Assembly: GCF_001701045.1 (NCBI RefSeq)
Contig: NZ_CP016757.1
Location: forward strand, 2,506,219 to 2,570,218
Length of the DNA: 64,000 nt
Reading direction: 5' to 3'
From: Cloacibacillus porcorum
Lineage (GTDB): Bacteria; Synergistota; Synergistia; Synergistales; Synergistaceae
The position numbers were made by a program, and so were the translations under genes. Below are positions 26,112-41,785 of this stretch, in pieces. The notes beneath the pieces are model-generated. The model had not been told where the DNA came from. It did not search any database and saw only the letters and a list, made by a program, of their open reading frames with translations. Position 1 is the first letter of the stretch. Every line of letters begins with the position of its first letter.

Positions 26112-27440
26112 ATGGCACATAACCACACTCATGGGTCGCCCTACTCCCGCCTCGCGGAGAGGCTCAACCGATTCCCGCAGGGCGCGCCGGAATCGAAGCT
26201 GCTTTTTGATATATTGAAAATTCTGATGACGGAGAGGGAGGCGGGGCTGATGGCCCAGCTTCCGATAAAGCCCTTCAGCGCCCATCAGGCGGCGGAGATA
26301 TGGAAACTTTCGGACTGCGAGGCGCAGAAAGCGCTTGACGAACTGGCCCGCCGCGCCATCATCGTCGACATCGAACAGGACGGCAGGCAGGTCTACGCCG
26401 TGCCGCCGCCGATGGCCGGATTCTTTGAGTTCTCTCTGATGCGCGTGCGCGATGATATCGACCAGAAGACCCTCAGCGAACTTTTTTACCAATACATCAC
26501 CGTCGAGGAGGACTTCATGCGCGACCTCGTCTGCGGCGGCGACATCCAGATGGGGCGTATCTTCCCGCAGGAGCCGCAGATACCCGACGAGTACGCGCTG
26601 CACGTGCTCGATTACGAACGCGCGACAAATGTCATCGACACCGCCTCGCACATCGGCATCAGCATGTGCTACTGCCGCCATAAGGCGCTGCACGCCGGCA
26701 CGGTCTGCGACGCGCCGATGGACATTTGCATGACCTTCAACACCACGGCGGCGACGCTGATCAAGCACGGCCACGCGCGCCAGGTGGAGGCCGCGGAGTG
26801 CCGCGACCTGCTCGCGCAGGCCTACGACCACAACCTCGTGCAGTTCGGGGAGAATGTGCGCCGCCGTGTCAACTTCATCTGCAACTGCTGCTCCTGCTGC
26901 TGCGAGGCGCTGCTCGCGATCAAGCGTTTCGGCGTCGCGCAGACGATCTGCTCGAATTACATCTCCAGAATCGAAGAGTCCAAATGCGTCGGCTGCGGCA
27001 AATGTGAAAAAATATGCCCCGTCAACGCCATTGAGATGACGGAGGATAAAAACGCCGCCTGTTCGTCCTCCGAGGGGGCGGCGCGCGAAAACGGCGTGAA
27101 AAGGGCGCGCGTCATCCCCGAACGCTGTATCGGCTGCGGCGTCTGCATCAAGCACTGCCCGACGAAGGCGCTACAGCTCGAACCGCGTCCCAACCGCATG
27201 ATAACGCCGCTCGACACGACCCACAAAGTCGTCGCGATGGCGACGGAACGCGGCAAGCTGCAGGAGCTGATCTTCGACAACAAGGTCCTTTTCAGCCACC
27301 GTCTGCTCGGCGGCGTCCTCGGCGCGATCCTCAAACTGCCCGGTCTCCAGCGCTCCTTCGCGCAGGCCCAGCTCAAGTCCAGATACCTTGAGACGCTGAT
27401 CTCGCGGGCAGCTGGTGAAGAGCCCCCCTCCGACAGATAG
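26112..27440 (+). CDS. 4Fe-4S dicluster-binding protein with N-terminal winged-helix-like region
   Basis: 442 residues. A His-rich start (HNHTHG) and a region ~50-100 like a winged helix (SAHQAAEIWKLSDCEAQKAL) precede a Cys-rich middle (CYCRHK, CNCCSCCCEA). Two ferredoxin clusters follow: CVGCGKCEKICP and CIGCGVCIKHCP at ~295-350. It is probably a soluble electron-transfer or redox-responsive protein. RBS AGGAGG precedes the ATG. It is the first gene of an operon with a MerR regulator (6-bp gap) and a chromate transporter pair. Specific function unknown. Confidence 0.85.
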   Translation: MAHNHTHGSPYSRLAERLNRFPQGAPESKLLFDILKILMTEREAGLMAQLPIKPFSAHQAAEIWKLSDCEAQKALDELARRAIIVDIEQDGRQVYAVPPPMAGFFEFSLMRVRDDIDQKTLSELFYQYITVEEDFMRDLVCGGDIQMGRIFPQEPQIPDEYALHVLDYERATNVIDTASHIGISMCYCRHKALHAGTVCDAPMDICMTFNTTAATLIKHGHARQVEAAECRDLLAQAYDHNLVQFGENVRRRVNFICNCCSCCCEALLAIKRFGVAQTICSNYISRIEESKCVGCGKCEKICPVNAIEMTEDKNAACSSSEGAARENGVKRARVIPERCIGCGVCIKHCPTKALQLEPRPNRMITPLDTTHKVVAMATERGKLQELIFDNKVLFSHRLLGGVLGAILKLPGLQRSFAQAQLKSRYLETLISRAAGEEPPSDR

Positions 27441-27446
27441 CGCGTA

Positions 27447-28262
27447 ATGAAATACCGTATCGGGCAGATATCAAAGCTCCTCGGACTCTCCGCCGAGGGT
27501 ATCCGCATGTACGAACGGGACGGGATCTTAAAATCCCATCGCGAGGGTACGGGCGGATACCGTTATTACGAACGGCCGGATATCGTCTCCCTGATACTGG
27601 CGAAGGACTATCGCGGATATGGGTTTTCCGTTTCGGAGGCGGAAAGCCTGATCAACACCGACGACCTTGATTTTGTGAAGAAAAGCTTTGCGAGGCGCGG
27701 GGCTGAGCTTCGCAAAGAGATCCTTCATAAGAGGCAAATACTGACATGTCTGCATGAAAGGGAGGCCTTGCTGAAAAAGGAGACGCGGCGGCTGGGGCTG
27801 GTGCGCCTGGCGGAGAGGCCGGCCTTTTACCTGCTGGAGTATATGCTGGACGACGAGCTGATACTGCGCCCAGAGCAATATGAGACCTTCCGGCGCTGGA
27901 TTGCCATGACGCCATTCGTCTTTCCCTCCCTGCGCTGCGACTGGACGGCCCTGTCGCGGGGAGAAAAAACTTTCACCGCCGCTCTGGGGCTCATGGAACG
28001 GGATATAAAACGCCTCGGAGCGGAGGAGCTGGCGGCGGCGGGGCGCTATTACCCCCCGGCTCCCTGTCTCTGCACCGTGGTCCGCGCAGTCGGCCACCGC
28101 TCCTCCGGTGACGATTATTTCGCGCATCTGCGCGGCTATGTAATGAAAAAGGCGCTCCGCGTGGCAGGCGACCCGGTCTCCCGCACCATCCTCTCCATGA
28201 ACAGACAGGCGGAGAATATCAGGTACAGGCAGATATGGCTGCCGGTCCGCGCCGCCGCTTGA
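27447..28262 (+). CDS. MerR family transcriptional regulator
   Basis: 271 residues. Residues 1-70 are a MerR winged helix (YRIGQISKLLGLSAEGIRMY then GGYRYYERPDI), followed by a coiled-coil linker and a ~150-residue C-terminal domain without metal-binding cysteine patterns that I recognise, more like the BmrR/drug-responsive type. It sits 6 bp after the Fe-S protein and 47 bp before the chromate transporter genes, so it probably controls this operon. Confidence 0.9.
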   Translation: MKYRIGQISKLLGLSAEGIRMYERDGILKSHREGTGGYRYYERPDIVSLILAKDYRGYGFSVSEAESLINTDDLDFVKKSFARRGAELRKEILHKRQILTCLHEREALLKKETRRLGLVRLAERPAFYLLEYMLDDELILRPEQYETFRRWIAMTPFVFPSLRCDWTALSRGEKTFTAALGLMERDIKRLGAEELAAAGRYYPPAPCLCTVVRAVGHRSSGDDYFAHLRGYVMKKALRVAGDPVSRTILSMNRQAENIRYRQIWLPVRAAA

Positions 28263-28309
28263 CCTTACAGCACGTGTAGGGTTTAACCTCGTGTAAAAGG
28301 GGGCGTACG

Positions 28310-28882
28310 ATGGAACGCTGCGGAACTGTCGCCGGGCTCTTCGTCCGGTTTATGAAATTAGGCTGTTTCACCTTCGGCGGCGGACTGAGCATCGTCGCGC
28401 AGATGCACAGGCTCTTTGTTGAAGAGGAGGAGAGAATCTCCAGCGAGGAGCTTCTGGACATTACCGGCGTCGCGCGCAGCCTGCCGGGCGCCTTCGTGGG
28501 AAATGTGGCCTTTCTCTACGGCTACCGCGAGGCCGGTATTCCCGGCGGGGTCGCCTCGCTGCTGGGAATGGTGATACCGCCGCTGCTCCTGCTTGCCGTG
28601 ATCACGCATTTCCACTCCGCCTTTAAAAACAGCCGGCTGGTGACCGCCGCCATGACCGGCATCCGCGCCGCCGTCGTCCCCATTATCGCCGTCGGCGCGC
28701 TCAATTTGACGCGCGGCGCCTTTCCCCGCCCTCTCTGCTTCGCGCTGGCGGGCGCCGCCTTTCTGCTTTATTTCGTCTTTAACGTAAGCTGCGTCTGGAT
28801 CGTCATTCTCGGCGCCGCGGCCGGCATCGCCATCGGAGTATGTTCTGAAAAGAGTGGAGGCGGCGCGCGTGGTGCTGATTGA
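28310..28882 (+). CDS. Chromate transporter family protein, first half-size subunit
   Basis: 190 residues, one CHR domain. The typical start is LFVRFMKLGCFTFGGGLSIV, with the family motif ARSLPGAFVGNVAFLYGYR and five to six helices. Half-size CHR proteins work as pairs with opposite membrane topology; the partner is the next gene. The family exports chromate or imports other oxyanions such as sulfate. RBS AAAGGGGG precedes the ATG. Confidence 0.92.
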   Translation: MERCGTVAGLFVRFMKLGCFTFGGGLSIVAQMHRLFVEEEERISSEELLDITGVARSLPGAFVGNVAFLYGYREAGIPGGVASLLGMVIPPLLLLAVITHFHSAFKNSRLVTAAMTGIRAAVVPIIAVGALNLTRGAFPRPLCFALAGAAFLLYFVFNVSCVWIVILGAAAGIAIGVCSEKSGGGARGAD

Positions 28883-29405
28883 GCTCTTCTGGAGCTTTGT
28901 AAAGATCGGCTTCACCAGCTTCGGCGGGCTCTCCATGATCCCTTTGATCAACGCGGAGATGATCTCACACGGATGGATGACAGCGGGCGAGGTCTCGGAC
29001 ATCATCGCGATCGCCGAAATGACTCCGGGCCCGCTCGGCCCCAACTGCGCGACCTTCGCCGGCATCAAGGCTGCCGGTATCGCCGGCGCGGTGGCAGCCA
29101 ACCTCGGCGTTCTCTCGCCGACGCTGACGCTCACCGCCGCCGCGGCCCTCTTTTTCGACCGCGTCAAGCAAAACCGCCGCATGACGCAGATAATGACCGG
29201 CGTCCGTCCGGCCTGCGTCGGTATGATCGCGGGGGTGACGCTGTCGCTCGGCATAACAAATTATGCCGCCGATAATTTTGTGGACCTGCCGCTGGTCGCA
29301 ATCGGCCTGCTGGATCTGGTACTGCTGCTCAGGTGGCGCGTCAGCGTGCCGAAGGTGATCGTCCTCAGCGCGGCGCTGGGGCTGCTCTGCTTCGGGATAC
29401 AATGA
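28869..29405 (+). CDS. Chromate transporter family protein, second half-size subunit
   Basis: 178 residues, one CHR domain: LFWSFVKIGFTSFGGLSMIP and AEMTPGPLGPNCATFAGIKA. The GTG at 28869 is chosen because GGAGG lies 8 bases upstream; a GTG at 28854 in the same frame would add five residues. It overlaps the end of the first subunit gene by 14 bases, so the two are translationally coupled. A hairpin terminator overlaps its stop. Confidence 0.9.
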   Translation: MVLIELFWSFVKIGFTSFGGLSMIPLINAEMISHGWMTAGEVSDIIAIAEMTPGPLGPNCATFAGIKAAGIAGAVAANLGVLSPTLTLTAAAALFFDRVKQNRRMTQIMTGVRPACVGMIAGVTLSLGITNYAADNFVDLPLVAIGLLDLVLLLRWRVSVPKVIVLSAALGLLCFGIQ

Positions 29406-29443
29406 TGCCGGCCTCCGCGCCTTAAGCGGAATAGGCCGGCATC
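29404..29443 (+). terminator. Stem-loop terminator after the chromate transporter operon
   Basis: GATGCCGGCCT (29404-29414) and AGGCCGGCATC (29433-29443) form a perfect 11-bp stem, with an inner CCGC/GCGG stem. GGTTTTACTCTTTC follows shortly on the plus strand. It lies between convergent operons. Confidence 0.65.
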
Positions 29444-29479
29444 CAGCGGTTTTACTCTTTCAGTTTTTACAGACGGCTT

Positions 29480-31000
29480 TCAGTCGTTGGCGATCTGAGC
29501 CAGTTTTTCCCATACCGGCGGCATAGTCTGCGCCACCTCTTTGTAAATAGCGAACAGCTGGTCGTATTTGGCGTGATTGCCCGGATCGGGCTTGTATGTC
29601 CGCTTCATGCGGATACATCTCCCGGCGGCCTCCAGCTCGTTCGCGAAGGCTCCGACGCCGACGCCCGCCAGCAGCGCGCCGCCGAAGGAAGATTCGGCGT
29701 TCGCGGGCTGTTTGACCTCCAGGCCGAATACGTCGCAGACGATCTGGCTCCAAAGCGGGCTCTTAGCCCCTCCGCCGATCACGACGATATCCTCCATCTT
29801 GTCAGTGAAGTCTTTCAAAACCTGCAGGCAGTCATAGAGGCTGAAGGCCACGCCCTCAAGCAGCGCGCGCGCAAAGTGGCCCTTGTTATGCACCATGCTG
29901 ACGCCGAAGAAATCCCCGCGCGCGTTGGGATTGAAGTAGGGACAGCGCTCTCCGAGAAGATAGGGGTGGAAGATCAGCCCGCGCGCGCCAAGCTCCGCGC
30001 CTGCGGCCTGTTCGTCCATGAGAAGGTAGACGTCCCGGCCTTCCCGTTCGCAGAGCTCCTTTTCCGCGGGATATAGCGCGTCGCGCATCCAGCGGTAGGC
30101 GGAGGCGCAGCTGTTGGTCGCCGTGACCGTATACCATTTACCCTCCACCGAGTAGGGATAGGTGAATGATTTTTCGTGGGGAACGGCCTTGTCGGTGATT
30201 AGGTTGACGTTGCCCGCGGTGGCGAGTTTGACGACGATCTGACCGGCCGTTACGGCGCCGGCGCTGAAATCCTCGGCCGCCGTATCGGAGCATCCGGCGA
30301 TAACGGGCAGCCCCTCCGGCAGTCCGGTAAGCGCGGCGATTTCGGCGCGTACCCTGCCGACGACCTCCTTGGAGCGGCGCACGTCGGGCAGCACCGCCAG
30401 CGGCAGGTCGATCATCCGGCATATTTCGGGGGACCAGCAGTTCTTCCTCGCGTCGAAGAGCAGGCTTCCCTGAGCGTCGACCACGTCGGTGCAGAAATCA
30501 CCCGTTATATATGAGCGGATATAGTCTTTGGTAAACATCAGGCGATCGATCTTAGCGTAGTTTTCCGGTTCGTGCTCTTTTAGCCACATCAGCTGCGGCA
30601 GCGTCCAGGTGGGCGTCGGCATCTGCATGCCTATGCGGAATATATCGTCGCCGTAATTTTCATTCAGGCGGCGGCACTGGTCTCCGCTCCGCTGGTCGTT
30701 CCACATGATGCAGGGACGGATCACGCGCGAGTCTTTGTCAAGCAGCACCGCGTTGTGCGTCGAGGCCGTCACCGCGAGAGCGAGCACGCCTCCAAAGCCG
30801 TCCTTCATCTGCTCCCCGCAGGAGCGCACCGTTTTCACGAAGGCGTCGAGCCACATCGCGGGCTCCTGCTCTGACCATCCCGGTTTCAGATGCTGCGACG
30901 GATATTCTTCAAAGGCCGAGGCACAGATATTGCCGTCGAGATCAATGACCATCGCCTTGCAGCCGCCGGTGCCAAAGTCCACGCCAAAAAGCTTTTCCAT
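29480..31000 (-). CDS. FGGY family carbohydrate kinase (xylulokinase-like)
   Basis: 506 residues with the two-lobed FGGY fold: N-terminal phosphate loop VDFGTGGCKAMVIDL, MWNDQRSGDQC, GCSDTAAEDFSAG and the C-terminal FGGY signature region (VVIGGGAKSPLWSQIVCDVF). It phosphorylates a polyol or ketose with ATP; xylulokinase is the nearest general relative. It is the last gene of the TRAP-GrdEB operon, 67 bp after the RpiR gene, so its substrate is probably part of, or derived from, the compound that operon handles (inference). Confidence 0.88.
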   Translation of the reverse strand: MEKLFGVDFGTGGCKAMVIDLDGNICASAFEEYPSQHLKPGWSEQEPAMWLDAFVKTVRSCGEQMKDGFGGVLALAVTASTHNAVLLDKDSRVIRPCIMWNDQRSGDQCRRLNENYGDDIFRIGMQMPTPTWTLPQLMWLKEHEPENYAKIDRLMFTKDYIRSYITGDFCTDVVDAQGSLLFDARKNCWSPEICRMIDLPLAVLPDVRRSKEVVGRVRAEIAALTGLPEGLPVIAGCSDTAAEDFSAGAVTAGQIVVKLATAGNVNLITDKAVPHEKSFTYPYSVEGKWYTVTATNSCASAYRWMRDALYPAEKELCEREGRDVYLLMDEQAAGAELGARGLIFHPYLLGERCPYFNPNARGDFFGVSMVHNKGHFARALLEGVAFSLYDCLQVLKDFTDKMEDIVVIGGGAKSPLWSQIVCDVFGLEVKQPANAESSFGGALLAGVGVGAFANELEAAGRCIRMKRTYKPDPGNHAKYDQLFAIYKEVAQTMPPVWEKLAQIAND

Positions 31001-31067
31001 TATAAGGGTCCCTCCATTTTAGGCGCACTGCCCTGCTATGCGCGCCGGAGGGCGGCAGAGCCGTACG

Positions 31068-31928
31068 CTAATACTTTTTTACTACAAGCGCCTTTTCCAG
31101 CGCCTCAAAATTCTGGATCGCGCTCTCTCCCAGCTTCAGCGAAACGCCGGTATAGAGAGTATCGATGATCGTGAGTTCCGCCATCCGCGACGCTATCGCG
31201 TAGGTCCGGTATCTCGTCTCCTGCGAGTGGGTATAGAGACGGATGTCGGCCAGCTTCGAAACCGGCGATATCCCATTGCTCGTGAGCGATATGACTGTCG
31301 CCCCGTTTTCTTTCACAAACCGGATCGCGTCGGCCACGTCACGGGAGCTGCCGGAATGGGAGATCGCCATCACGACATCCTCTTTACCCAGGGAGGCCAT
31401 AGCGATCATCTGCATATGGTCGTCGGTGTAGGCGCTCACGTTGAGGCCGATCCGCAAAAACTTATGCTGCGCGTCCATCGCGATCGCGCCGGAGTTGCCG
31501 TTGCCGATGACGACTATCCGCCGCGCGCGGCAAAGCACCTCTATGCACCTCGCCACCGCGGAAGCGTCCAGCGCCCTCTGCGTCATCGTCATCGTCTGGA
31601 TGGCGCTGGAAAATATCTTGTCGATGATCACCTCCGCCGAGGAGTCGGCGTTCAGGTCCTCGTGGATCTTTTCCTGCGGCGAGACCAGCTCGCGCGCGAC
31701 TCCCACCTTCAGGGCCTGAAACCCCGAATATCCCAGCTTCGTACATACCCTGGTGACGGTGGCCTCGCTGGTCCCCGCCAGCTCCGCCAGCTCGGTGATC
31801 GAGGCGTAGATTAGTTTTTCCTGGTTGTCCGCCATGTACTCGACCGTCTTCCGCTCTTTTTTGGAAAGGGAATCCAGCTTTTCCTGTACCCGGCTGTAAA
31901 AAGCGCCGCTAGTAGATTTTTCTCTCAT
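31068..31928 (-). CDS. MurR/RpiR family transcriptional regulator
   Basis: 286 residues. Residues ~1-77 are the RpiR helix-turn-helix (LAELAGTSEATVTRVCTKLG). Residues ~110-250 form a SIS sugar-phosphate-binding domain (RRIVVIGNGNSGAIAMDAQ and AISHSGSSRDVADA). The ligand is usually a phosphorylated sugar or polyol, which fits the kinase next to it. It lies inside the operon it probably regulates; a perfect TGAAAAT-T-ATTTTCA palindrome upstream of the first gene is a good candidate operator. Confidence 0.93.
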   Translation of the reverse strand: MREKSTSGAFYSRVQEKLDSLSKKERKTVEYMADNQEKLIYASITELAELAGTSEATVTRVCTKLGYSGFQALKVGVARELVSPQEKIHEDLNADSSAEVIIDKIFSSAIQTMTMTQRALDASAVARCIEVLCRARRIVVIGNGNSGAIAMDAQHKFLRIGLNVSAYTDDHMQMIAMASLGKEDVVMAISHSGSSRDVADAIRFVKENGATVISLTSNGISPVSKLADIRLYTHSQETRYRTYAIASRMAELTIIDTLYTGVSLKLGESAIQNFEALEKALVVKKY

Positions 31929-32035
31929 GTCCGTTAGCTCCGTTTTCTATGCTATGTATTTATCGTCCGTTATCCCAATTTTACATATTTGAAGATTCAG
32001 GAGCAAACTAAATTTACCTCGGCGCGGCATTAAAT

Positions 32036-33346
32036 CTATAAAAGATCCTCCACATGCCCGGGCTGGCCGGGAATTGTGAGCATTTCCAGCGCCTTTTCCA
32101 CATAGCGGCGGCGGCAGGCCTTTTCGTCCGCCGGGCTGAGATTGGGGTTGCCGACGGGGCAGGTGATGGCAAAACCGCGCAGTATACGCGAAGCGCCCAC
32201 AGAACCGGCGATATCGACCACGGCGCAGATCTGCGTCACCGGGATGCCAACACGCTCTATCTCTTTGACAATCGTTGACCCGCAACGAGTGCTCGTGCCT
32301 CAGGTGGAGGTGAGGATAGCGGCGTTGACACCCTTATTCAGCAGCTCGGCGGCGATCTGCCGCCCAATATCCTGCGAGGCGGCTACCGAGGCGCAGTTTC
32401 CCGTCGCCACGCAGACCTCCGGCTCCAGCGCTCCGAGCCTTCCCGCCGAGACCTCTTCGCGCAGCACGTCCACGGGAAAGAGACGGCAGGGATCTTCGAG
32501 CACCCAGGTGCCGTCATAGCCGCTGTGGATGACGAAATGCGGCTCCGCCACGAGCCTGTCCCAGTCGTAATGGCCCCAGGTGGTGCTGCCGTTGGGTTTC
32601 AGCTTGTCGGGATTTTGTTCGGGGATAAGGCCTCCGTCGGAGACAAGGGCCAATTTGACCCCGCTCAGATCGGTTACCGGCGGCGCCGGCTCCACGTTAT
32701 CGAAATTCGGAGGCAGCAGCTCGCTGACAAAGGGCTCCCCTTTTATCTTTTTCATCAGCATATCGATGGCGCGCACGGCGGCATTGTCCGGCTGTTCCTC
32801 GTTGAGGATCACGTCGCGGATCATATACCCCTCGGCGGCGGCGCTGCCGATATGCTCCCCCGTCAGCAGCCGCAGCCCGATACCGGCCATCACGGGGGCG
32901 ACATTGCGCAGCTGCGAGGACATTATGCCGGTCTTTACGATGTAGGTATCCTTGCGGTAAAGCTCGACGGCGGGGTTCTCCGGGAACATGCCGGTGACCG
33001 TGGGGATATGAAGCTCGCGGGCCACCGCCGAAGCCATGCAGCCGCAGCTGATGCCGTAACGCCCGGCGTTAAAGGCGGGCCCCGCGATAAACAGGTCCGG
33101 CTTCAGCGCGCGTACCAGCGCCAGCCCCTCGGCCGCGCCGCGCTCCGTGTCCTCCGCAAAATAGTTGTCGCCGCAGATTACCGTTCCCACCACCTCGCAG
33201 CGCTCCCGCAAAAGTTCCTGGAAGAGTCTCGCGGGGCCGACGGCCTCATGCTTGACGCTGAAACCGACGTGGGCCATCTCTTCGCCGCCGATCTGTCCGA
33301 AGAATTGATTTATGTAGCAGACTACCCGCCATTTTTTTTGTTCCAT
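32036..33346 (-). CDS. Glycine/betaine/sarcosine reductase component B selenoprotein subunit (GrdB-like), in-frame UGA
   Basis: The frame runs 348 codons, meets UGA at 32300-32302 and continues in the same frame for 87 codons to a UAA-type end at 32036. The total of 436 residues equals that of GrdB/GrdF/GrdH. The joint reads ILTST-U-GTSTRCGSTIVKEIERVG, matching the family motif STUGTxTRCG, so Sec349 is the catalytic selenocysteine. The sequence before (GFSVKHEAVGPARLFQEL, FNAGRYGISCGC) and after (GNPNLSPADEKACRRR) is family-typical. A Ser follows where many GrdB proteins have Cys (UGTC). It begins 15 bases after the GrdE-like gene. Automatic callers would split or truncate it. The substrate is unknown. 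Confidence 0.93.
32282..32302 (-). promoter_or_regulatory. Possible SECIS-type hairpin directly after the UGA codon
   Basis: Starting two bases after the UGA, the mRNA reads GCACGAGCACUCGUUGC, which folds as GCA-CGA / UCG-(U)-UGC around a GCAC loop. Bacterial SECIS elements lie in this position, but their primary sequence is not conserved, so this is suggestive only. Confidence 0.35.
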
Positions 33347-33361
33347 AACGCAGCGCCTCCT

Positions 33362-34666
33362 CTAGTAATCCACAGCCATCCCGTAGGAAAAACCTACCTG
33401 GCTCATCAGCCCCACCTGTTTCATATAGGTTGAGCGGACCCGCCCCTTCGCTGGGTCCCCGGTCGCTATCTTGTGACCGCCGATGACGCCGTCGTCGCCG
33501 CTCAGATAAAGAGCATCTTCCGGGCCGCCCAGCAAAGTCTCGACCGCAGGCAGTGAGAAGTTGTGATAATAGGTGCCGGAACATACGATCGAATTGACGT
33601 TATGGTCGCTGATCATACATTCGACGCCGAGATTGCTCTTCCCGTTGAGTATCTGAATGATGGGAACGGCCTTGATGCCGAGCTTTTCCGCTTCGCTAGC
33701 GATCGCCCCCACGCACAGGGTCGAGGCGCCGCCGACCCCCTTGGTGATGATGGCACCGTCTGCGTGAAATACCTCTTTGAGCAGGCTGGCCGCCATCTTT
33801 GAGACCAGATTGCGGTGCTTGGCCTCCACCGATGTGACGGTGATCACCACGCCCGCGAAATTCAGCTCTTTGCCGTGACGCCGCATCAGCTCGATGATGA
33901 CTGGATGGTTCTGTATCTCATAGGTCGTGACGCAGCGGAAACCGCCGCAGGGTGAGATCGCCCCGTCAAGCACCTCCGTGGGCTGCATGATCAGCGGCAG
34001 CGTATCAGGAACTGCGTTGCCGTAGAGCATCGGCTCCCGGTAATTTTGCGTATCGTACTGCTTTGAATAGATCTGATAGACATAGGCGACATTGGGCAGC
34101 CCCGGATGCCGCTCACTGTTGTCGAAGGTCTCGCTGCTGTCGGCGGCCCGTTCGTGCGTCGCCTTCGCGAGCATTACGCTCGTTTTGAAACCAACGCGGC
34201 GCAGCGCCTCGCGGTACTCGCGGAAATCGGCGTCAGCCGGCGTCAGCGGTTCAATGACGAGCATGGGCATCTTCGCGTAGGGATTTATCTCCGCGCATTC
34301 GCCGCTCATATCGAACGATCCCCATTTTCTTGACCAGTACGTGTCGTTCTGGCAGAGGACGATGCCCATTCCCTCAACGGCGCGCGTCACACCGCCGCCC
34401 GCTATCTCATAGTCGTCCGTCAGTACGCCCGGCCAGTCGATATTATCCGACATCTTGCAGCGGGGCTGTACAACATCCACGACGTTGATGATACGCGTTG
34501 AGTCGCCGGGGCGGGCAATGTCGATCTTCAGGGTGTCAAAGCAGGGCTCGCCCGCGGCGAACGCCAGGATATCCTCTTTGCTGACGTAGAGCACGCCGTC
34601 GCGCAGAGAGGTAGACTCGCCGAATTGCAGATCTTTAATGTGAACCGTTTCAACCGTTAATTTCAT
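33362..34666 (-). CDS. Glycine/betaine/sarcosine reductase component B proprotein (GrdE-like, pyruvoyl)
   Basis: 434 residues of the GrdE/GrdG/GrdI/PrdA-related family. These precursors are cleaved at an internal cysteine, which becomes the pyruvoyl group that binds the substrate amine. Here Cys240 (AISPCGGF) or Cys245 (RCVTTYEIQN) lies in the expected place; Cys245 is the likelier. Other family segments: VKDLQFGE-like KDLQFGESTSL and GVGGASTLCVGAIASEAEKL. Together with the GrdB-like selenoprotein it forms the substrate-specific component B. It is placed directly after the TRAP genes (21-bp gap). Confidence 0.9.
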   Translation of the reverse strand: MKLTVETVHIKDLQFGESTSLRDGVLYVSKEDILAFAAGEPCFDTLKIDIARPGDSTRIINVVDVVQPRCKMSDNIDWPGVLTDDYEIAGGGVTRAVEGMGIVLCQNDTYWSRKWGSFDMSGECAEINPYAKMPMLVIEPLTPADADFREYREALRRVGFKTSVMLAKATHERAADSSETFDNSERHPGLPNVAYVYQIYSKQYDTQNYREPMLYGNAVPDTLPLIMQPTEVLDGAISPCGGFRCVTTYEIQNHPVIIELMRRHGKELNFAGVVITVTSVEAKHRNLVSKMAASLLKEVFHADGAIITKGVGGASTLCVGAIASEAEKLGIKAVPIIQILNGKSNLGVECMISDHNVNSIVCSGTYYHNFSLPAVETLLGGPEDALYLSGDDGVIGGHKIATGDPAKGRVRSTYMKQVGLMSQVGFSYGMAVDY

Positions 34667-34687
34667 CTGTATGAATCTCCTTTTATA

Positions 34688-35971
34688 TTAAGCGCCCATC
34701 AGCAGATTAGGCACGAAGGTGACTATCGGCGGGAAGAACCACATCAGCAGCATTACGGTGAGGATGATGAGGACGACGGGTACCGTATAGCTGATCGCCT
34801 GCCGGAATGTCGCGCCGGCGATATTCATCGACAGGAAGAGATATAGTCCCACCGGCGGCGTCAGCGCGCCCACGACCGTGGAGATTGAGAAGAGCACGCC
34901 GAAGAGCAGCGGATCGACGCCCAGGTGCATCACGATCGGGTAGACCGTGGGCAGAATGACCGCCGTGGCCGCGAGCGTCTCCATGAAGCAGCCGATTATC
35001 AGCATCATGACGATGATGATAAACACCAGGACTGCGGGGTTGTGCGTGATCGAAAGCAGGAAATTCTCGACCATCGGAGTGACGTTCTCGCGCGCGAATA
35101 TGTAGGAGTAGATGTTCGAAATACCCATGATCATCATCAGCATCGCCGACGATGAGGAGGCCCTTTTGAATATCCCCAGCATATCTTTCAGTTTCAGCGT
35201 GCGGTAGATGAAGAAGCCGCAGATCAGCGCGTAGACACAGGCTACGATGCTGGATTCCGTCGCCGTGAAGAAGCCGGTGACCACTCCCGCGAGAATGATG
35301 ACCGGAGTTATCAGCGCGAAGAAGGACTTCAAAAAGGCCCGCCACACAGATCCGAGGCTGAAACGCCCGCTGCCCTGGTCGACATTGTACTTCGTCGCGT
35401 ACCAGTAGCACATCACCATCAGGCAGACGCCGATCAGGATGCCGGGCATCAGGCCGCCGATAAAGAGCCTGCCCACGGAGAATCCCGTCAGCGAGGCGTA
35501 GACGATCATATTGGTGCTTGGCGGGATGATCGGCGCCAGCGCTCCGGAACCCGCGATCATCGAGGCGATGAACCCCCTGTCGTACCCCTCTTTGTTAAGC
35601 TCAGGCACCGTCAGAGTGCTGATCGCGCTCATCGTCGCCGCGCCGGATCCGGATATGCCGGCGAAGATCATATTCGCCAACACGGAGACCATCCCCATAC
35701 CGCCGCGTATCTGGGCGACGCAGGCCCGGCAGAAATCAAGGATACGCGTGGAGAGGTTGGCGGCTCCCATGATCTCACCCGCCAGGATAAAGAGCGGCCC
35801 GGCCATCAGCGAAAAGGAATTCATGCCGCGAATGGCCTGCTGCACAGCCATAAAGGCGGGAATCTCGCTGCCGAACATGATCGCCAAAAGCCCGGAGAGG
35901 CCGATCGCGAAACATACCGGCACGCCCAGCACCAGAAAAATCAGCAGAGTTATCAGCGCAATGGCAATCAT
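34688..35971 (-). CDS. TRAP transporter large permease (DctM)
   Basis: 427 residues with about twelve membrane helices. Family features are GLSGLLAIMFGSEIPAFMAV, ANMIFAGISGSGAATMSAIS (conserved GxSGS), and GALAPIIPPSTNMIVYAS. It forms the ion-coupled channel of a tripartite importer with the genes upstream. The start codon directly follows the DctQ stop. The substrate is probably an organic acid or amine used by the adjoining reductase (inference). Confidence 0.95.
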   Translation of the reverse strand: MIAIALITLLIFLVLGVPVCFAIGLSGLLAIMFGSEIPAFMAVQQAIRGMNSFSLMAGPLFILAGEIMGAANLSTRILDFCRACVAQIRGGMGMVSVLANMIFAGISGSGAATMSAISTLTVPELNKEGYDRGFIASMIAGSGALAPIIPPSTNMIVYASLTGFSVGRLFIGGLMPGILIGVCLMVMCYWYATKYNVDQGSGRFSLGSVWRAFLKSFFALITPVIILAGVVTGFFTATESSIVACVYALICGFFIYRTLKLKDMLGIFKRASSSSAMLMMIMGISNIYSYIFARENVTPMVENFLLSITHNPAVLVFIIIVMMLIIGCFMETLAATAVILPTVYPIVMHLGVDPLLFGVLFSISTVVGALTPPVGLYLFLSMNIAGATFRQAISYTVPVVLIILTVMLLMWFFPPIVTFVPNLLMGA

Positions 35972-36463
35972 CTATCTTTCCCCTTCCCTGTATTGTCTTG
36001 CCAGCTTGGGAATGGCGCTGGCGTAAGAGCAGAGCATCATGACGATTCCCAGAGGAACCGCCGCGTATATGTAGGCGTAGGGAATGCGGATGGCGGCTCC
36101 CAGCGAATTGAAGCTCTTCGAGACCAGAACGATCGATCCCGGAAAAAACATAATCAGGAAGACGACGCAGATCAGCCTGCCGATGATAAACAGCACCGCG
36201 CGCGCCTTATTGTTTTTCATAAAGCTGATGACGATATCAACCGACACATGGGCGTCCGCCCTCACAGTAAGGGCCGAGCCGATAAACGTCAGGTAGATGC
36301 CGCAAAAGCGCATGGCCTCTTCGGTCCACGGCGGCGACGAATGAAGGATAAAACGGCCAAAAACCTGCAGACTGCCGAAAACCAAAATCAGGACGAACAT
36401 CAGCGCGCAGAACCAGACCTGGATATTTTCGATTACTCTGTCTATTTTTATCAATGTTTTCAT
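35972..36463 (-). CDS. TRAP transporter small permease (DctQ)
   Basis: 163 residues with four membrane helices; FGRFILHSSPPWTEEAMRFC is the family motif around the EE pair. The ATG at 36463 (GAGG upstream) is preferred to an ORF start at 36523 whose extra residues are basic and unlike the family. It bridges DctP and DctM in the membrane. Adjacent to DctM without a gap. Confidence 0.9.
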   Translation of the reverse strand: MKTLIKIDRVIENIQVWFCALMFVLILVFGSLQVFGRFILHSSPPWTEEAMRFCGIYLTFIGSALTVRADAHVSVDIVISFMKNNKARAVLFIIGRLICVVFLIMFFPGSIVLVSKSFNSLGAAIRIPYAYIYAAVPLGIVMMLCSYASAIPKLARQYREGER

Positions 36464-36572
36464 CTTTATTGACCTCATGCTCCGGTAAGGGCGCCCCCGC
36501 GCGGCAAACGCGCGCGGAGGCATTCCGTCTTGATCGATATGTTAATTCTTCTGCTGTAACATAAGGGGGAGG

Positions 36573-37571
36573 TTAACTGTTCAGCGACAGCATCTTCTTG
36601 ATGAGGCCGCCCAGCTTGTAATTTTTCTCATATTTGTCGTATATCGGCTGACAGGCGTTCTTCATCCTGTCACGTTCCTTCTGCGATATATCGTTGATCT
36701 TCACTCCGGCCGCCGCCATCGCCTTTTCCGCGGCGTTATCGGAGGCCTGGCGGTTCTGCAGCTGCTTCTTCTGGCTCTCAAGCGCGCTCTTCTGGATTAT
36801 ATCCTGCAGGTCTTTGGGGATGGAGTCCCATTTGTCCTTATTGATAAAGACACAGTATATGGCGCCCAGGTGGCCGATCTTGGAGAGGTATTTCGCCTGT
36901 TCCTGAAGGTTCTGATTTACCAGCCCCGTGACGTCGGCTTCGACGGCGTCGGCCACGCCCTGCTGCAGGAGCGTATAGGCCTCGCTCCACGCGGAGGTGA
37001 CGGTGCTCGCTCCGAGGCAGTTCCAGATATCGACGTAAAGCGGCGTTTCGGCGGTACGCATCTTAACGCCCTTAATATCCTCAAGGCGGGTTATCGGCTT
37101 CGTCTTGAGCAGGGGCTGGCGGATGCCGTTGGAATAGGTCATCAGCAGGCGGACATTGGAGTCCTTAAGCATCTTCGGAACCTCCTGCGCCACTATGCCG
37201 TCTATGAGCTTGGCCTGTGTGGCAAGGTCCTTGGTGAGGAAGGGCATATTAAATACGGCGAGCTGGGGGATGTTCAGCGCCGCGGCCCAGTCGGCGGTGT
37301 CGCAGCAGGTCATGTCAAGAGTTCCCATCGTCACCTGCTCCATCATTTCACGCGCGGAACCGAGCTGGCTGGAGGGATAAATATTGACCTTGACCTGACC
37401 GTTGGAGCGTTTCTCCACCATCGCTTTGAACTCTTCCGGGGCGATAGCCAGCGCATGGCCGGGGTTCTGGATGTGCCCGAACTCAAGGGTGACCTTCGCC
37501 TTCGCTTCGCTGACGGAGGCCAGCATACCGACAAGTAACAGAACTGACAGGACGAGAGACAGCTTCTTCAT
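36573..37571 (-). CDS. TRAP transporter periplasmic substrate-binding protein (DctP)
   Basis: 332 residues with signal peptide MKKLSLVLSVLLLVGMLASV. DctP features: NIYPSSQLGSAREMMEQVTM, and RTAETPLYVDIWNCLGAS, where the Arg binds a ligand carboxylate in most family members. The ATG at 37571 has GAGGAGG 8 bases before it; the frame-open ATG at 37589 overlaps that site. It overlaps nothing but begins 14 bases after the dehydrogenase stop. An acidic (carboxylate) ligand is therefore expected. Confidence 0.94.
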   Translation of the reverse strand: MKKLSLVLSVLLLVGMLASVSEAKAKVTLEFGHIQNPGHALAIAPEEFKAMVEKRSNGQVKVNIYPSSQLGSAREMMEQVTMGTLDMTCCDTADWAAALNIPQLAVFNMPFLTKDLATQAKLIDGIVAQEVPKMLKDSNVRLLMTYSNGIRQPLLKTKPITRLEDIKGVKMRTAETPLYVDIWNCLGASTVTSAWSEAYTLLQQGVADAVEADVTGLVNQNLQEQAKYLSKIGHLGAIYCVFINKDKWDSIPKDLQDIIQKSALESQKKQLQNRQASDNAAEKAMAAAGVKINDISQKERDRMKNACQPIYDKYEKNYKLGGLIKKMLSLNS

Positions 37572-37585
37572 GAAAAAATTCCTCC

Positions 37586-38701
37586 TCATTTATTTGTTGC
37601 TGCTTTTGCTTTGTACTTTTTACCTAAAGCGTCGGCGGCCAAGATAGCCGCGTATACCCGTTCGGAGTTCACCAGAAATGGTTCCTGATGGACAAGGGGG
37701 CCGTTCGCCGTCTTCTCCGCGATCGCCGTGATCTTTTCCGGCGTCGCTTCGACGCCGAGGTCCGCCAGCGTCATGGGCAGGCCGATGGCGGCCATAAAGT
37801 TCATGACCTTATCCACGACGGAGGCATCGCTGTTTTCCAGCACAAGCTGGCAGACGATGCCAAAGGCCACCTTCTCACCGTGCAGGTACTTGTGGGTCTC
37901 AGGCAGGGCCGTGAGGCCGGAATGGATGCCGTGAGCGGTGGCAAGGCCGGTATTGAGAAAGCCGAGACCGCTGAGCAGGGTGTTCGCTTCGATGACATTT
38001 TCCAGAGCTTCGGTTACGACGCCAAGCTCAAGCGCCGCCAGCGCGTTAAGCCCGTCAGCGAAGAGGATATCCCAGCTCGCCCTGGCAATGGCCATGCCCG
38101 CCTTGCTGCGGCGATAGCCCGCACCGATATAATTGGGAGAATCCGAGCCGTCGACGGCCTGAGCTTCGAGCCAGGTTGCCAGCGCGTCGCCCATACCGGC
38201 GATAAAAAGACGGCGGGGAGATTTAGCGATTATTTCACTGTCCACAAGCACAAGGTCCGCGTTCTTTTTCACCTTGCGCGAGCCGATATATTCCCCGTCT
38301 GGGGTATAGATGACCGCGATCTCGCTCACCGGCGCATCCGTTGAGGCGGAAGAGGGCACGATGATCAGCGGCATATTCATGGCGTCGGCGCATAATTTCG
38401 CCGTATCCAAAGTCTTTCCGCCGCCGACGCCGACAAAGACACAGCCATTCTGCTCCCTGGCGATGGCGCCGATCCTGCCGATCTCCTCGTCGCAGCACTC
38501 TCCCTGGAACTTTATTGAGGTAAATTCGCCGCCGTCATAGGCTTTTTCCAGCCGCGCGTTCAGCTCCGGATACAGAAAGCCGTCGATAAGAACGCAGGCC
38601 TTTCCGTAAGGCGCGGTATACTGCGGCAGCCGGCTGAACTCGCCCGGCCCCTGCACATAACGCAAAGGACTTCCAAAGGCTCTTGTGGTGGAACTTAGCA
38701 T
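37586..38701 (-). CDS. Iron-containing alcohol dehydrogenase family, glycerol dehydrogenase-like
   Basis: 371 residues with the GldA fold: NAD-binding GVGGGKTLDTAK and PSSASTDAPVS, then the metal ligands Asp172 (MGDALATW), His257 (AHGIHSG) and His274 (HGEKVAFG). It oxidises glycerol or a related hydroxy compound with NAD+, or reduces the ketone. It is the first gene of the TRAP-GrdEB-RpiR-kinase operon, so the real substrate is probably not free glycerol. The ribosome site before the ATG is weak. Confidence 0.88.
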   Translation of the reverse strand: MLSSTTRAFGSPLRYVQGPGEFSRLPQYTAPYGKACVLIDGFLYPELNARLEKAYDGGEFTSIKFQGECCDEEIGRIGAIAREQNGCVFVGVGGGKTLDTAKLCADAMNMPLIIVPSSASTDAPVSEIAVIYTPDGEYIGSRKVKKNADLVLVDSEIIAKSPRRLFIAGMGDALATWLEAQAVDGSDSPNYIGAGYRRSKAGMAIARASWDILFADGLNALAALELGVVTEALENVIEANTLLSGLGFLNTGLATAHGIHSGLTALPETHKYLHGEKVAFGIVCQLVLENSDASVVDKVMNFMAAIGLPMTLADLGVEATPEKITAIAEKTANGPLVHQEPFLVNSERVYAAILAADALGKKYKAKAATNK

Positions 38702-38954
38702 AATCTTCGAGTAGGCCGCATAGGCAAACTCTTGCCCCCTTCATTATTTAGTTTTGAGATGGGATCGATATTTCTAAATCAAAACGACGTTTTTAAAAAT
38801 AATTTTCTATAATTCAAAGGTGCTTTGACAGCATAAAACATACCATAAGCATATAAAATACATACTTATCGTCCCTTTTATTTATACACAACCCTCTTAA
38901 TATAAAATATTTTCAAAAAGCATTAAACATTCACTAGTTTGATTATATTATATA

Positions 38955-38969
38955 TGAAAATTATTTTCA
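38955..38969. promoter_or_regulatory. RpiR-type operator candidate
   Basis: A perfect 15-bp palindrome, TGAAAAT-T-ATTTTCA. MurR/RpiR regulators commonly bind TGAAA-N5-TTTCA-like sites, and an RpiR gene is part of the operon starting at 38701, 254 bp downstream. Confidence 0.55.
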
Positions 38970-39049
38970 ATATATTTTTACGATATATTCACACATTCTT
39001 TGCCACTTTCTGTTACGCCTGTATAAAAAGGCGGAGGGCTGGCATGAAA

Positions 39050-39180
39050 AGCGTCAGGCGTCGCCGACGCTCAGTTATTGCACAAGGATAAAATATGTTT
39101 CGCCGGAGAGGGGCGCAGGCAGCCGCGTCCGTTATTGACGGCAAGAACCGGAAACCAGAGAACATGCCGGCGGACGCGGC
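39050..39180 (-). ncRNA. Candidate structured RNA in the gltS-dehydrogenase intergenic region
   Basis: GCCGCGTCCG (39122-39131) and CGGACGCGGC (39171-39180) form a perfect 10-bp stem around a 39-nt interior with smaller complementary segments (CCGG/CCGG, CCGT/ACGG). On the minus strand a second hairpin, AGCGTC-GGC-GAC-GCC-(T)-GACGCT at 39050-39071, is followed by TTTTC, as in a terminator. The strand is inferred from this T-run. It matches no RNA family I know; it could also be a leader of the downstream operon or a palindromic repeat. Confidence 0.3.
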
Positions 39181-39257
39181 AAAGAAAAGGGTGAAGGATT
39201 TAACAGATGGGAGCTGACGTCTCTGCAAGTACGGCGGACTACAGTACACTGAGGGAG

Positions 39258-39291
39258 ACCGCCGCCAAGCTAGGGCGGGGCGGCGGTCTTA
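39258..39291. repeat. GC-rich inverted repeat upstream of the gltS terminator
   Basis: GACCGCCGCC and GGCGGCGGTC, about 11 bases apart, make a 10-bp stem near 39260-39291, just beyond the gltS terminator. It could be a second terminator for transcripts from either side. Confidence 0.4.
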
Positions 39292-39311
39292 AGGATAAAA
39301 GAGCGTCATAT

Positions 39312-39345
39312 AAAAGAGAGGGGCGGCCCGTCAGCCACCCCCTCC
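39312..39345 (-). terminator. Rho-independent terminator of the glutamate symporter operon
   Basis: On the minus strand GAGGGGGTGGC pairs with GCCGCCCCTCTC around a short loop and is followed by TTTTATATG, immediately after the stop codon at 39348. Confidence 0.8.
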
Positions 39346-39347
39346 CA

Positions 39348-40565
39348 TCAGGCAAAGATCTTTATCAGTACGTTTATCACTATCACGTTCACAATGTCTA
39401 TGAAGAAGGCTCCAACCGCCGCTACGGCGAAGAATGCGTCGGGGGCTATTCCGTACTTGGCGCAGACGGCCTCCATGTTGGCGATCGCGTTCGGCGTGGC
39501 TCCGAGACCAAAGCCCGTATGACCCGCCGTGATAACGGCGGCCTGATAGTCGCCGCCGGTAAGGCGAAACGTCACGTAGTAGGCGAAGAGGATCATCAGC
39601 ACGACCTGGAAGGCAAGGATAGAGAACAGAGGCGCCGCCAGGCCGCTCAGGGCCGTAAGGTCCACGGACATCAGCGCGAAGGCGAGAAAGAAGGAGAGGC
39701 AGGCGCCGCTGATGTGGTTCACGATCCTAGGATTGACGCGAAGCAGCCTCACGTGGTCCCCGGTGTTGCGGATCACCATTCCGGCAACGAGGGCGAGCGC
39801 GTAGGCAGGCAGCAGGATGCCGCGCGCGCCGAGCCATTCGCTGAACCACATGCCTAGCCCGACTGCGAAAGTTATCTGGAAAACGGTCATCAAAATCGAA
39901 TGGGTGTTTATCTCCTCGCCGGTGTCACCAAAGCTGAAGACATCAGGAATCATCTCTTTACGATAACTTTCACCGTTGACCTCTTTCGCCAGCGAATGTC
40001 CCTTGATGAGGCGTTCGGCGATCGGCCCGCCGAGCAGCGACCCCGCGAGTACGCCGAAGGTGGCGCAGGCGATCGCCGTAGCCTGCGCGCCCTGAAGGCC
40101 GAAAACCCGTTCAAGCTCGTCGGCAAAGACGAGCCCGGTCCCATGGCCGCCGGTCATCGTCGCGGAACCGGCAAGTACGGAGAGCATCGGATGAAGGCCG
40201 GAGAATTTCCCGATCACGATCGCCGCGGCGTTCTGCAGTATCAGCAGAAGGCAAGCCGCCAAAAGCAGTTTGAAGGCCGCCGAACCGCCCTTTTTTAGCA
40301 GCGCGACGCTCGCGCCGAGGCCGATCGTGGTAAAGAAGGCGATCATAAAGGGTTCCATAAGGGTCAGGTCGAACTCAAAACCGACCCTGGATGTCAGCAG
40401 AAGCCTGAGTACGGCAAAGAGCAGTCCGCCGACTACCGCGGGCGGGATGTTGTAGCGTATGAGAAACTTTACGCGGCGGCAGAGCGTCACGCCCAGCCAG
40501 TAAAGTATCGAGGCGAAGGCCATCGTTTGAATGAAGTCCATCTTTACCATAAAAATATCCGCCAT
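39348..40565 (-). CDS. Sodium/glutamate symporter (GltS family), copy 1
   Basis: 405 residues with about ten membrane helices in two inverted halves. GltS signatures: GGHGTGLVFADELERVFG and GHTGFGLGATPNAIANMEAV. It imports glutamate or a close analogue with Na+. The gene follows a paralogue by 14 bp and shares most of its motifs; a gene duplication with divergence in the middle cytoplasmic loop is evident. Last gene of a five-gene operon. Confidence 0.93.
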   Translation of the reverse strand: MADIFMVKMDFIQTMAFASILYWLGVTLCRRVKFLIRYNIPPAVVGGLLFAVLRLLLTSRVGFEFDLTLMEPFMIAFFTTIGLGASVALLKKGGSAAFKLLLAACLLLILQNAAAIVIGKFSGLHPMLSVLAGSATMTGGHGTGLVFADELERVFGLQGAQATAIACATFGVLAGSLLGGPIAERLIKGHSLAKEVNGESYRKEMIPDVFSFGDTGEEINTHSILMTVFQITFAVGLGMWFSEWLGARGILLPAYALALVAGMVIRNTGDHVRLLRVNPRIVNHISGACLSFFLAFALMSVDLTALSGLAAPLFSILAFQVVLMILFAYYVTFRLTGGDYQAAVITAGHTGFGLGATPNAIANMEAVCAKYGIAPDAFFAVAAVGAFFIDIVNVIVINVLIKIFA

Positions 40566-40579
40566 CTCTTATCCCTCCC

Positions 40580-41785
40580 TTAAAAAAATGCCACGAAGCT
40601 CTGTATGACTATGGCGTTAACAATGTCGATGAAAAAGGCCCCGACAATAGATACGACAAAGAAGGCGCGCGGCGCGGGGCCGTAGTTGCTCGTGATCGCG
40701 TCCATATTGGCGATGGCGTTCGGCGTGGCGCCGAGACCGAAGCCGCAGTGCCCGCCTGAAATGACGGCGGCGGTATAGTCGCGTCTCATCACGTTGAAGG
40801 TGACAAAGTAGGCGTAGAATCCCATCAGCAGCGTCTCTCCGAGCAGGATCAGCGCCATCGGCCCGGCAAGATCGGCAAGCTGCCAGAGCTTAAGCGACAT
40901 CAGCGATAGTGCGAGGAAGAGCGAGAGGGCGACGGCGCCGATCGTGTCGGCGAGCCTCAGGTGTACCTTATACAACCCGCTCATGTCGCTCAAATTACGG
41001 ATAAAGATACCGACGAAGAGGGCGCAGAGATAGGTCGGAAGCTGTATTCCCACCTTTACAAGCTCCTCATATATAAAGGCGCCAACGCTCATTGCGATCG
41101 TAATCTGCATCAGCGTCGTCATCAGCACCGAGGCCGACACGGGGCCGTCGGAGGCGGGGTCGAGCGTTTCGTCCACCGTCTCATAGGTCATTTCGTCGGG
41201 ATTGAGATGCGATTTAGAGAGACGGTTGCGCTCTATCAGGCGGCGCGCCACCGGGCCGCCGAGGATCGACCCCATCACGAGGCCGAAGGTGGCGGCGGCC
41301 ATCGCAAGCTCCATACCGCCGGCAAGGCCGTACTGTTTCTCAAAAAGGGCAGCGTAGACCGCTCCGGTACCGTGGCCGCCGGACATCGTAATGGACCCGG
41401 CCAGCATCCCGAGCAGCGGATGTATCCCCGTGGCGTATGAGAGGGCGACGGCGATCACGTTCTGGAGAAGCACCAGCACGGAGGCGACAATCAAAAAGAT
41501 AAAAACCTGAGGTCCGCCCTGCTTCAGCATCTTGAAGCTCGCGGCAAGGCCAATACTGGTAAAGAATGTTATCATCAGGGGATCTTTGACGACCATGTCA
41601 AAGTTGAAAGAAAAGCTGTCTTTGAACGCCCAGCTCGCAAGCGCGAAGATCACGCCGCCGATCACCGGCGCGGGAATATTGTACTTGCTGAGGAAGAAAA
41701 TCCTCTTCCGGAGAAACATGCCAAGCCAGAGAATGGCTGTGGCGAAGGCCACGGTCTCGACAAGGTTAAAGTTGAGCTCTGTCAT
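40580..41785 (-). CDS. Sodium/glutamate symporter (GltS family), copy 2
   Basis: 401 residues, the same architecture as the next gene: GGHGTGAVYAALFEKQYG and GHCGFGLGATPNAIANMDAI. Its ATG overlaps the stop of the ROK gene by 4 bases, so it is translationally coupled to the upstream catabolic genes. Two adjacent, diverged copies suggest different ligands, for example L- and D-glutamate or different glutamate conjugates (inference). Confidence 0.93.
   Translation of the reverse strand: MTELNFNLVETVAFATAILWLGMFLRKRIFFLSKYNIPAPVIGGVIFALASWAFKDSFSFNFDMVVKDPLMITFFTSIGLAASFKMLKQGGPQVFIFLIVASVLVLLQNVIAVALSYATGIHPLLGMLAGSITMSGGHGTGAVYAALFEKQYGLAGGMELAMAAATFGLVMGSILGGPVARRLIERNRLSKSHLNPDEMTYETVDETLDPASDGPVSASVLMTTLMQITIAMSVGAFIYEELVKVGIQLPTYLCALFVGIFIRNLSDMSGLYKVHLRLADTIGAVALSLFLALSLMSLKLWQLADLAGPMALILLGETLLMGFYAYFVTFNVMRRDYTAAVISGGHCGFGLGATPNAIANMDAITSNYGPAPRAFFVVSIVGAFFIDIVNAIVIQSFVAFF

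Follow-up and report, generated by a model that had tools for sequence, protein, structure and literature searches.

Substrate recognition in a modular, energy-conserving reductase falls to component B, to which few substrates (glycine, sarcosine, betaine and fluoroacetate) have so far been assigned. Cloacibacillus porcorum MFA1 has been described as carrying eight grdB genes that contain selenocysteine (Sec) and feed a common GrdA/GrdC system, the types named being glycine, proline, betaine, sarcosine and fluoroacetate (PMC10838667). The fluoroacetate reductase of this strain, FarEB, is encoded by the farACEB operon; its FarE subunit lacks the pyruvoyl cysteines and was likened to GrdI (PMC10838667).

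Here we describe a 64,000-nucleotide window of the Cloacibacillus porcorum genome (C1:2506219-2570218 of the complete 3,585,187-base genome), in which a GrdE/GrdB component B pair lies within an eight-gene array (29480-38701, minus strand) together with a polyol-type dehydrogenase, a TRAP importer, an RpiR regulator and an FGGY kinase. We consider it very likely that the pair is a new, substrate-specific component B lineage that works with its operon neighbours. The literature that we searched held no paper describing this operon, and the text of PMC10838667 gave no function that could be tied to it; Fig. 3c of that paper depicts the grdB clusters of MFA1, this one perhaps among them.

The locus resembles FarEB in being its probable sister in both subunit trees, in a Sec-containing GrdB with the motif UGTS, in drawing on GrdA in trans and in an altered GrdE processing region. 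It differs in that its GrdE is ~31% identical to FarE, which has no cysteine in that region where the present clade has C240 and usually C245, and in that the Far operon brings an MFS-type transporter and a radical SAM gene rather than TRAP, dehydrogenase, RpiR and kinase genes. With sarcosine GrdFG and glycine GrdEB it shares a two-subunit component B encoded by adjacent genes, Sec with a selenocysteine insertion sequence (SECIS), and GrdA/GrdCD in trans; unlike them it forms a separate long-stem clade, has UxxSxxC for UxxCxxC, has lost the canonical processing motif and sits in a polyol-type operon. PrdA/PrdB is likewise a homologous Sec reductase with its own substrate handling, whereas the present pair combines marginal Prd model scores with Grd-type subunit sizes and no prd accessory genes. 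The joint presence of importer, dehydrogenase, FGGY kinase and SIS-domain regulator recalls TRAP/ABC operons for polyols and sugar acids, in contrast to which a selenium-dependent component B here adjoins the kinase, or shares its gene block, in every carrier.

Placement of the GrdE/GrdB pair

The grdE-like gene (33362-34666, minus strand) encodes a component B alpha subunit of 434 amino acids (PF09338, Gly_reductase, 259 bits), and the grdB-like gene (32036-33346, minus strand) a component B selenoprotein of 436 amino acids (PF07355, GRDB, 400 bits; TIGR01918, 443 bits against a cut-off of 65). The adjacency of these PF09338 alpha and PF07355 beta genes, 15 nt apart, is the pairing of component B. 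Sequence searches found no relative of GrdE or GrdB in the PDB, and the best result of a fold search with GrdE (E 0.018) was unconvincing.

Trees of GrdE were built from the component B alpha subunits of eleven genomes, and then with the addition of GrdG (sarcosine) from Peptoclostridium acidaminophilum and two Acetoanaerobium sequences. The ten GrdE orthologs described below were monophyletic (support 100/100) on a stem of >2 changes per site, and, whether or not FarE rows were included, stayed apart from the glycine, sarcosine and betaine-type groups, the betaine-type group being anchored by a BCCT-type neighbour and related sequences rather than by a characterised GrdI. The GrdB tree agreed, giving a separate clade with support of 99/99. 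The original prediction of a distinct component B branch is thus borne out, since a position within a sarcosine or betaine branch was looked for in both trees and not seen. The nearest group in both was fluoroacetate reductase (98/98 for GrdE; 100/99 for GrdB), a provisional placement that joins two long branches, and the sequences suggest that this enzyme is probably the sister of the clade.

Scores against substrate-specific models fell short of every cut-off: 426 bits against 602 for the glycine reductase GrdB model TIGR01917; 178 and 459 bits against 780 and 800 for the sarcosine GrdFG models NF040793 and NF040794, with the pair also outside the clade that holds P. acidaminophilum GrdG; 387 bits against 775 for the betaine GrdHI model NF040795; 190 bits against 675 for the FarE model NF053623, to which the host's own FarE scores 883; and 37.5 and 67.9 bits against 700 and 300 for the D-proline PrdA/PrdB models TIGR04480 and TIGR04483. 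These cut-offs are strict—even the host's grdA-linked pair falls short of TIGR01917 (589 against 602 bits)—and the lineage argument is therefore carried by the trees.

Both subunits depart from the canonical motifs. GrdB had originally been taken to end at 32300 as a plain open reading frame (ORF) of 348 amino acids, which proved mistaken: the UGA at 32300-32302 is a Sec codon (codon 349) that is read through to a TAG stop at 32036-32038, giving the full length of 436 amino acids. Inside the gene, a bacterial SECIS element (32262-32299, minus strand; Rfam RF01990 SECIS_4, 40.3 bits against a gathering score of 38, E 8e-6) begins at the base right after the UGA. As the free fold of the 43-nt SECIS stretch was no more stable than shuffled sequences (z 0.5), this call rests on the covariance-model match and on the fact that ten orthologs keep the Sec codon. 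While the Sec position is conserved, the motif around it is UGTSTRCG instead of UGTCTRCG in all ten, so that GrdB fails a search for UxxCxxC and shows UxxSxxC throughout; FarB deviates too. In GrdE, CGGFRCV replaces the canonical pyruvoyl motif GNCVSACDK, with C240 kept in 10/10 orthologs and C245 in 9/10. Pyruvoyl cysteines are not required of every component B member, because betaine GrdI and FarE also lack them.

Conservation and distribution of the operon

Read from 38701 downward, the array encodes GldA, DctP, DctQ, DctM, GrdE, GrdB, RpiR and the FGGY kinase, with intergenic distances of −4, 49, 0, 21, 15, 107 and 67 nt. Families were assigned with hidden Markov models (HMMs; Pfam, TIGR and NCBIfam profiles with curated cut-offs), and the positions and matches agree with the eight same-strand genes originally proposed, as does the lack of a grdA, grdC, grdD or thioredoxin gene in the array.

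GrdE orthologs were found in ten genomes including the host: five Synergistota (of 188) and five Clostridia, namely Flavonifractor sp. An92, a Lawsonibacter metagenome-assembled genome (MAG), Ohessyouella blattaphilus, a Lachnospiraceae MAG and a Eubacteriales MAG. The search that revealed the Clostridia gave eight loci, two of which repeat Synergistota carriers and two of which are overlapping contigs of one MAG. Identity to the window copy was 71-88% in the nine other genomes. Flavonifractor sp. An92, a member of another phylum, has the identical eight-gene order with 77-88% protein identity, and because the same order recurs there we do not regard the array as a product of chance. GrdE, GrdB and the kinase are present together in all ten carriers; within Synergistota, kinase orthologs (59-82% identity) occur in exactly the same five of 188 genomes as GrdE, the next kinase having 34% identity. 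Two sets of five would coincide in this way with a probability of 5e-10 if the genomes were independent; the 188 are not fully so, and the five carriers represent five genera.

A congener (G137) shows the same site without the operon: its flanks are collinear with those of the host, and the 11.9-kb stretch at 27416-39349 is replaced by 2.2 kb holding none of the operon genes. On the basis of this site and of the co-distribution, a coincidental neighbourhood was rejected. That kinase, dehydrogenase, regulator and importer belong with the reductase, as had been proposed, is supported by a gene order kept in two phyla and by the occurrence of GrdE and kinase in exactly the same genomes among the 188.

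Some parts of the operon are exchanged between carriers. The dehydrogenase is GldA, a short-chain dehydrogenase/reductase (SDR) or both. RpiR occurs in seven carriers, with a divergent regulator instead at loci L029 and L030; the L029 regulator was tested and is of the PdxR/MocR type, and that of L030 is similar in sequence. TRAP genes of the window type are found in eight carriers; one other (L074) has a Liv-type amino-acid ABC transporter instead, and another (L031) has a different TRAP and, directly upstream of grdE, GlcD-like, Fe-S and Etf-like genes. At this last locus (L031:814-7754, carrier G100) the GlcD-like oxidase, Fe-S and Etf-like genes run into grdE and a DeoR-like regulator lies upstream, an arrangement in which 2-hydroxyacid oxidation may be coupled to the reductase. 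In carrier G043 (L030:8651-9934) dctM is split into two ORFs, possibly through a frameshift or an assembly error.

No further carrier emerged among 394 genomes sampled from the order of An92 or 392 from that of Ohessyouella, plasmid records gave GrdE relatives only ~27-30% identical among the matches listed, and viral contigs gave none. The operon is a rare, horizontally mobile, co-inherited cassette.

The common components were expected to be supplied from elsewhere in the genome, and GrdA (PF04723) and GrdD (NF040747) are indeed found in all ten carriers. The host has eight GrdE/GrdB pairs, in agreement with the eight grdB genes of strain MFA1—membership of the component B family is thus ordinary for this organism—with one grdA and one grdD, both outside the window: grdA at C1:2452235, with a thioredoxin gene just upstream, and grdD at C1:2731541, beside a GrdC-like ORF. 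In Ohessyouella, a grdD gene lies on the strand of the operon and ends 33 nt upstream of its first gene, that of the SDR, which is a stronger hint of coupling to GrdA/GrdCD than genome-wide presence. Ohessyouella has several near-identical grdD copies (L069:1-512 and L119:8189-8680), two of them broken at contig ends and one of these two abutting the operon.

Four of the other host pairs were also noted. Two (L021:9187-11859 and L023:9633-12284, at C1 ~3318 kb and ~39 kb) form a clade of their own and are of Grd rather than PrdA/PrdB type; one lies between proline-racemase-like and symporter-like genes and the other by a symporter-like gene, and their substrate is perhaps proline-related. Another (L020:3622-9610, C1 ~2742-2748 kb) has a very long branch, placed near the betaine group, and is encoded close to TAXI-looking TRAP-like genes. 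The pair at L022:9287-11867 is the host fluoroacetate reductase (FarE 883 bits), after which comes a partial grdB-like copy that lacks the Sec region (C1:3480920-3481639).

Operon genes and clues to the substrate

The enzymes beside the reductase, like all genes of the array on the minus strand, are of polyol or carbohydrate type. The gldA-like gene (37586-38701) encodes an iron/zinc-type polyol dehydrogenase of 371 amino acids that scores above the subfamily cut-off of NF006941 (419 bits against 336), though below the substrate-specific equivalogs NF047954 and NF053832; its metal-ligand motifs (Asp and two His, D/H/H) are kept in the orthologs. The FGGY carbohydrate kinase (29480-31000; 506 amino acids; PF00370/PF02782) is XylB-like, with 404 bits to TIGR01312 against a cut-off of 380, below which one ortholog falls (374). 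It has ASTHN where E. coli xylulokinase has GQMHG, the Met-His of which we take to be a substrate-side motif; the Met is Thr or Ala and the His is retained in 9/9 kinase orthologs compared. Other Synergistota kinases, the next closest at 34% identity, were uninformative as to specificity. The regulator (31068-31928; 286 amino acids) belongs to the RpiR/MurR family and carries a SIS domain (PF01418, HTH_6, with PF01380). Taken together, the kinase, the GldA and SDR enzymes and the regulator with its SIS domain point to a substrate that is hydroxylated in part.

The TRAP importer consists of the solute-binding protein DctP (36573-37589; 338 amino acids; PF03480, TIGR00787), the small permease DctQ (35972-36523; 183 amino acids; PF04290) and the large permease DctM (34688-35971; 427 amino acids; PF06808, TIGR00786). 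In DctP, R157 and R178 align with R152 and R173 of 4P47, both TRAP carboxylate arginines thus being kept, and Ala218 aligns with the supporting Asn213. D97 and D100, invariant in eight orthologs, align with S95 and N98, which contact the ligand in the isethionate binder IseP; such an acidic pair would suit a cationic group beside the carboxylate. A profile search with DctP gave no match at 1e-50. Assigning a substrate by DctP homology was rejected, as the closest solved structures (among them sugar-acid, ectoine and isethionate binders) are ~23-26% identical with nearly tied Z-scores.

The DctP aspartates, the exchange for a Liv-type ABC transporter and the PdxR/MocR-type regulator favour an amine-bearing acid, while the altered GrdE and GrdB motifs make a non-amine leaving group possible. 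The candidate chemotype that best satisfies most of these clues is an N-(polyhydroxyalkyl)glycine, for example an Amadori-type glycine; the literature searched held no paper joining glycine reductase with Amadori compounds.

Upstream of gldA lies a candidate sigma-70 promoter, TTGAAA-17-TATAAT (38942-38970, minus strand), which matches 11/12 consensus positions, a consensus match only, in a region where chance alone predicts ~6 promoter-like sites. Two adjacent same-strand genes immediately upstream of the operon (39348-41785) encode paralogous membrane proteins that, as read from the sequence, resemble sodium/glutamate symporters.

Mechanism and competing explanations

In the mechanism that we propose, the TRAP system would import an anionic, probably zwitterionic, hydroxylated compound. 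The GrdB selenium would attack the carbon next to the carboxylate, and the hydroxylated moiety would leave, most likely in the form of an amine. The carboxymethyl group would pass to the single GrdA of the genome, and GrdC/GrdD would release acetyl phosphate. GldA and/or the SDR dehydrogenase, with the FGGY kinase, would convert the hydroxylated moiety to a phosphorylated intermediate, to be sensed by the RpiR regulator. The order of the steps, the carboxymethyl transfer, the amine leaving group and the role of RpiR are inferred, and for the chain as a whole we would put the probability at roughly 0.4. As regards the transfer, the scheme for PrdB has the selenoether resolved internally by the UxxC cysteine (PMC3091704); by this analogy, its loss in the present GrdB argues against internal resolution and would favour transfer of the carboxymethyl group to GrdA with release of acetyl phosphate.

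Several points weigh against this mechanism. The DctP argument depends on a sequence alignment at ~25% identity, with a model that is poor in the pocket. The loss of GNCVSACDK, together with the ortholog that lacks the second cysteine, makes Schiff-base chemistry on an amine uncertain, and the altered motif and the kinship with FarEB speak against the amine reading; fluoroacetate reductase, the probable sister group, shares part of the motif changes and has fluoride as leaving group. Every carrier has other component B genes that need GrdA/GrdCD, and the presence of GrdA and GrdD therefore does not prove their use by this GrdEB; the grdD adjacency comes from one genome, at a contig edge. Of the interpretation first offered, the separate lineage, the dedicated operon and the shared GrdA hold, whereas cleavage of a C–N bond and the identity of the substrate are not established, the GrdE motif being replaced and the UxxC of GrdB lost.

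A FarEB-like reaction with a non-amine leaving group (phosphate, sulfite, halide or quaternary amine) would account for the sister position in both trees, for the absence from both lineages of the UxxC cysteine and of the canonical pyruvoyl motif—FarE, related to GrdI, lacks the pyruvoyl cysteines (PMC10838667)—and for a kinase linkage as tight as that of the reductase itself. We nonetheless think it unlikely, given that C240 (and C245 in 9/10) is kept at the processing region, unlike in FarE, that FarEB has no kinase or dehydrogenase partner, that the grouping with Far brings two long branches together and that the importer and regulator clues favour an amine. One form of it, a kinase-primed reductive dehydroxylation in which phosphorylation of a hydroxyl by the FGGY kinase precedes displacement of the phosphate by the GrdEB selenium, reducing a polyol or sugar-acid carbon instead of cutting a C–N bond, appears very unlikely. 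The linkage of dehydrogenase and kinase to the reductase could also be explained if an amino-polyol or amino-ketose were reductively deaminated directly. Secondary alcohols are substrates of GldA-family enzymes and SDRs; the dehydrogenase would give an alpha-amino ketone, GrdEB would remove the amine adjacent to the ketone and the XylB-like kinase would phosphorylate the deoxyketose, with no acetyl phosphate formed and GrdA serving only as reductant or going unused. This too is unlikely, for the resolving UxxC cysteine of a PrdB-like cycle is absent, grdD abuts the operon in Ohessyouella and DctP retains both carboxylate arginines. Finally, strong matches to the general family HMMs are what an ordinary glycine, sarcosine, betaine or D-proline component B would show, perhaps merely lying beside an unrelated polyol operon. 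We hold this to be highly improbable: the pair scores far under every substrate-specific cut-off and does not fall within those clades, the one anchored by the characterised sarcosine GrdG among them; the neighbourhood is conserved across phyla and co-distributed, and the entire block is missing from this site in the congener.

Dietary glycation products offer a reasonable starting point in the search for the substrate, because carboxymethyllysine, an N-substituted glycine formed by glycation, is reportedly degraded by Cloacibacillus evryensis (PMC9501902); the operon itself is not tied to that compound. The conserved union of a component B with a polyol-type kinase would surprise the specialist. 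A cassette in which dehydrogenase and importer join the two, and which has moved between Synergistota and gut Clostridia, suggests that hydroxylated or glycated compounds are within reach of Stickland-type reduction.

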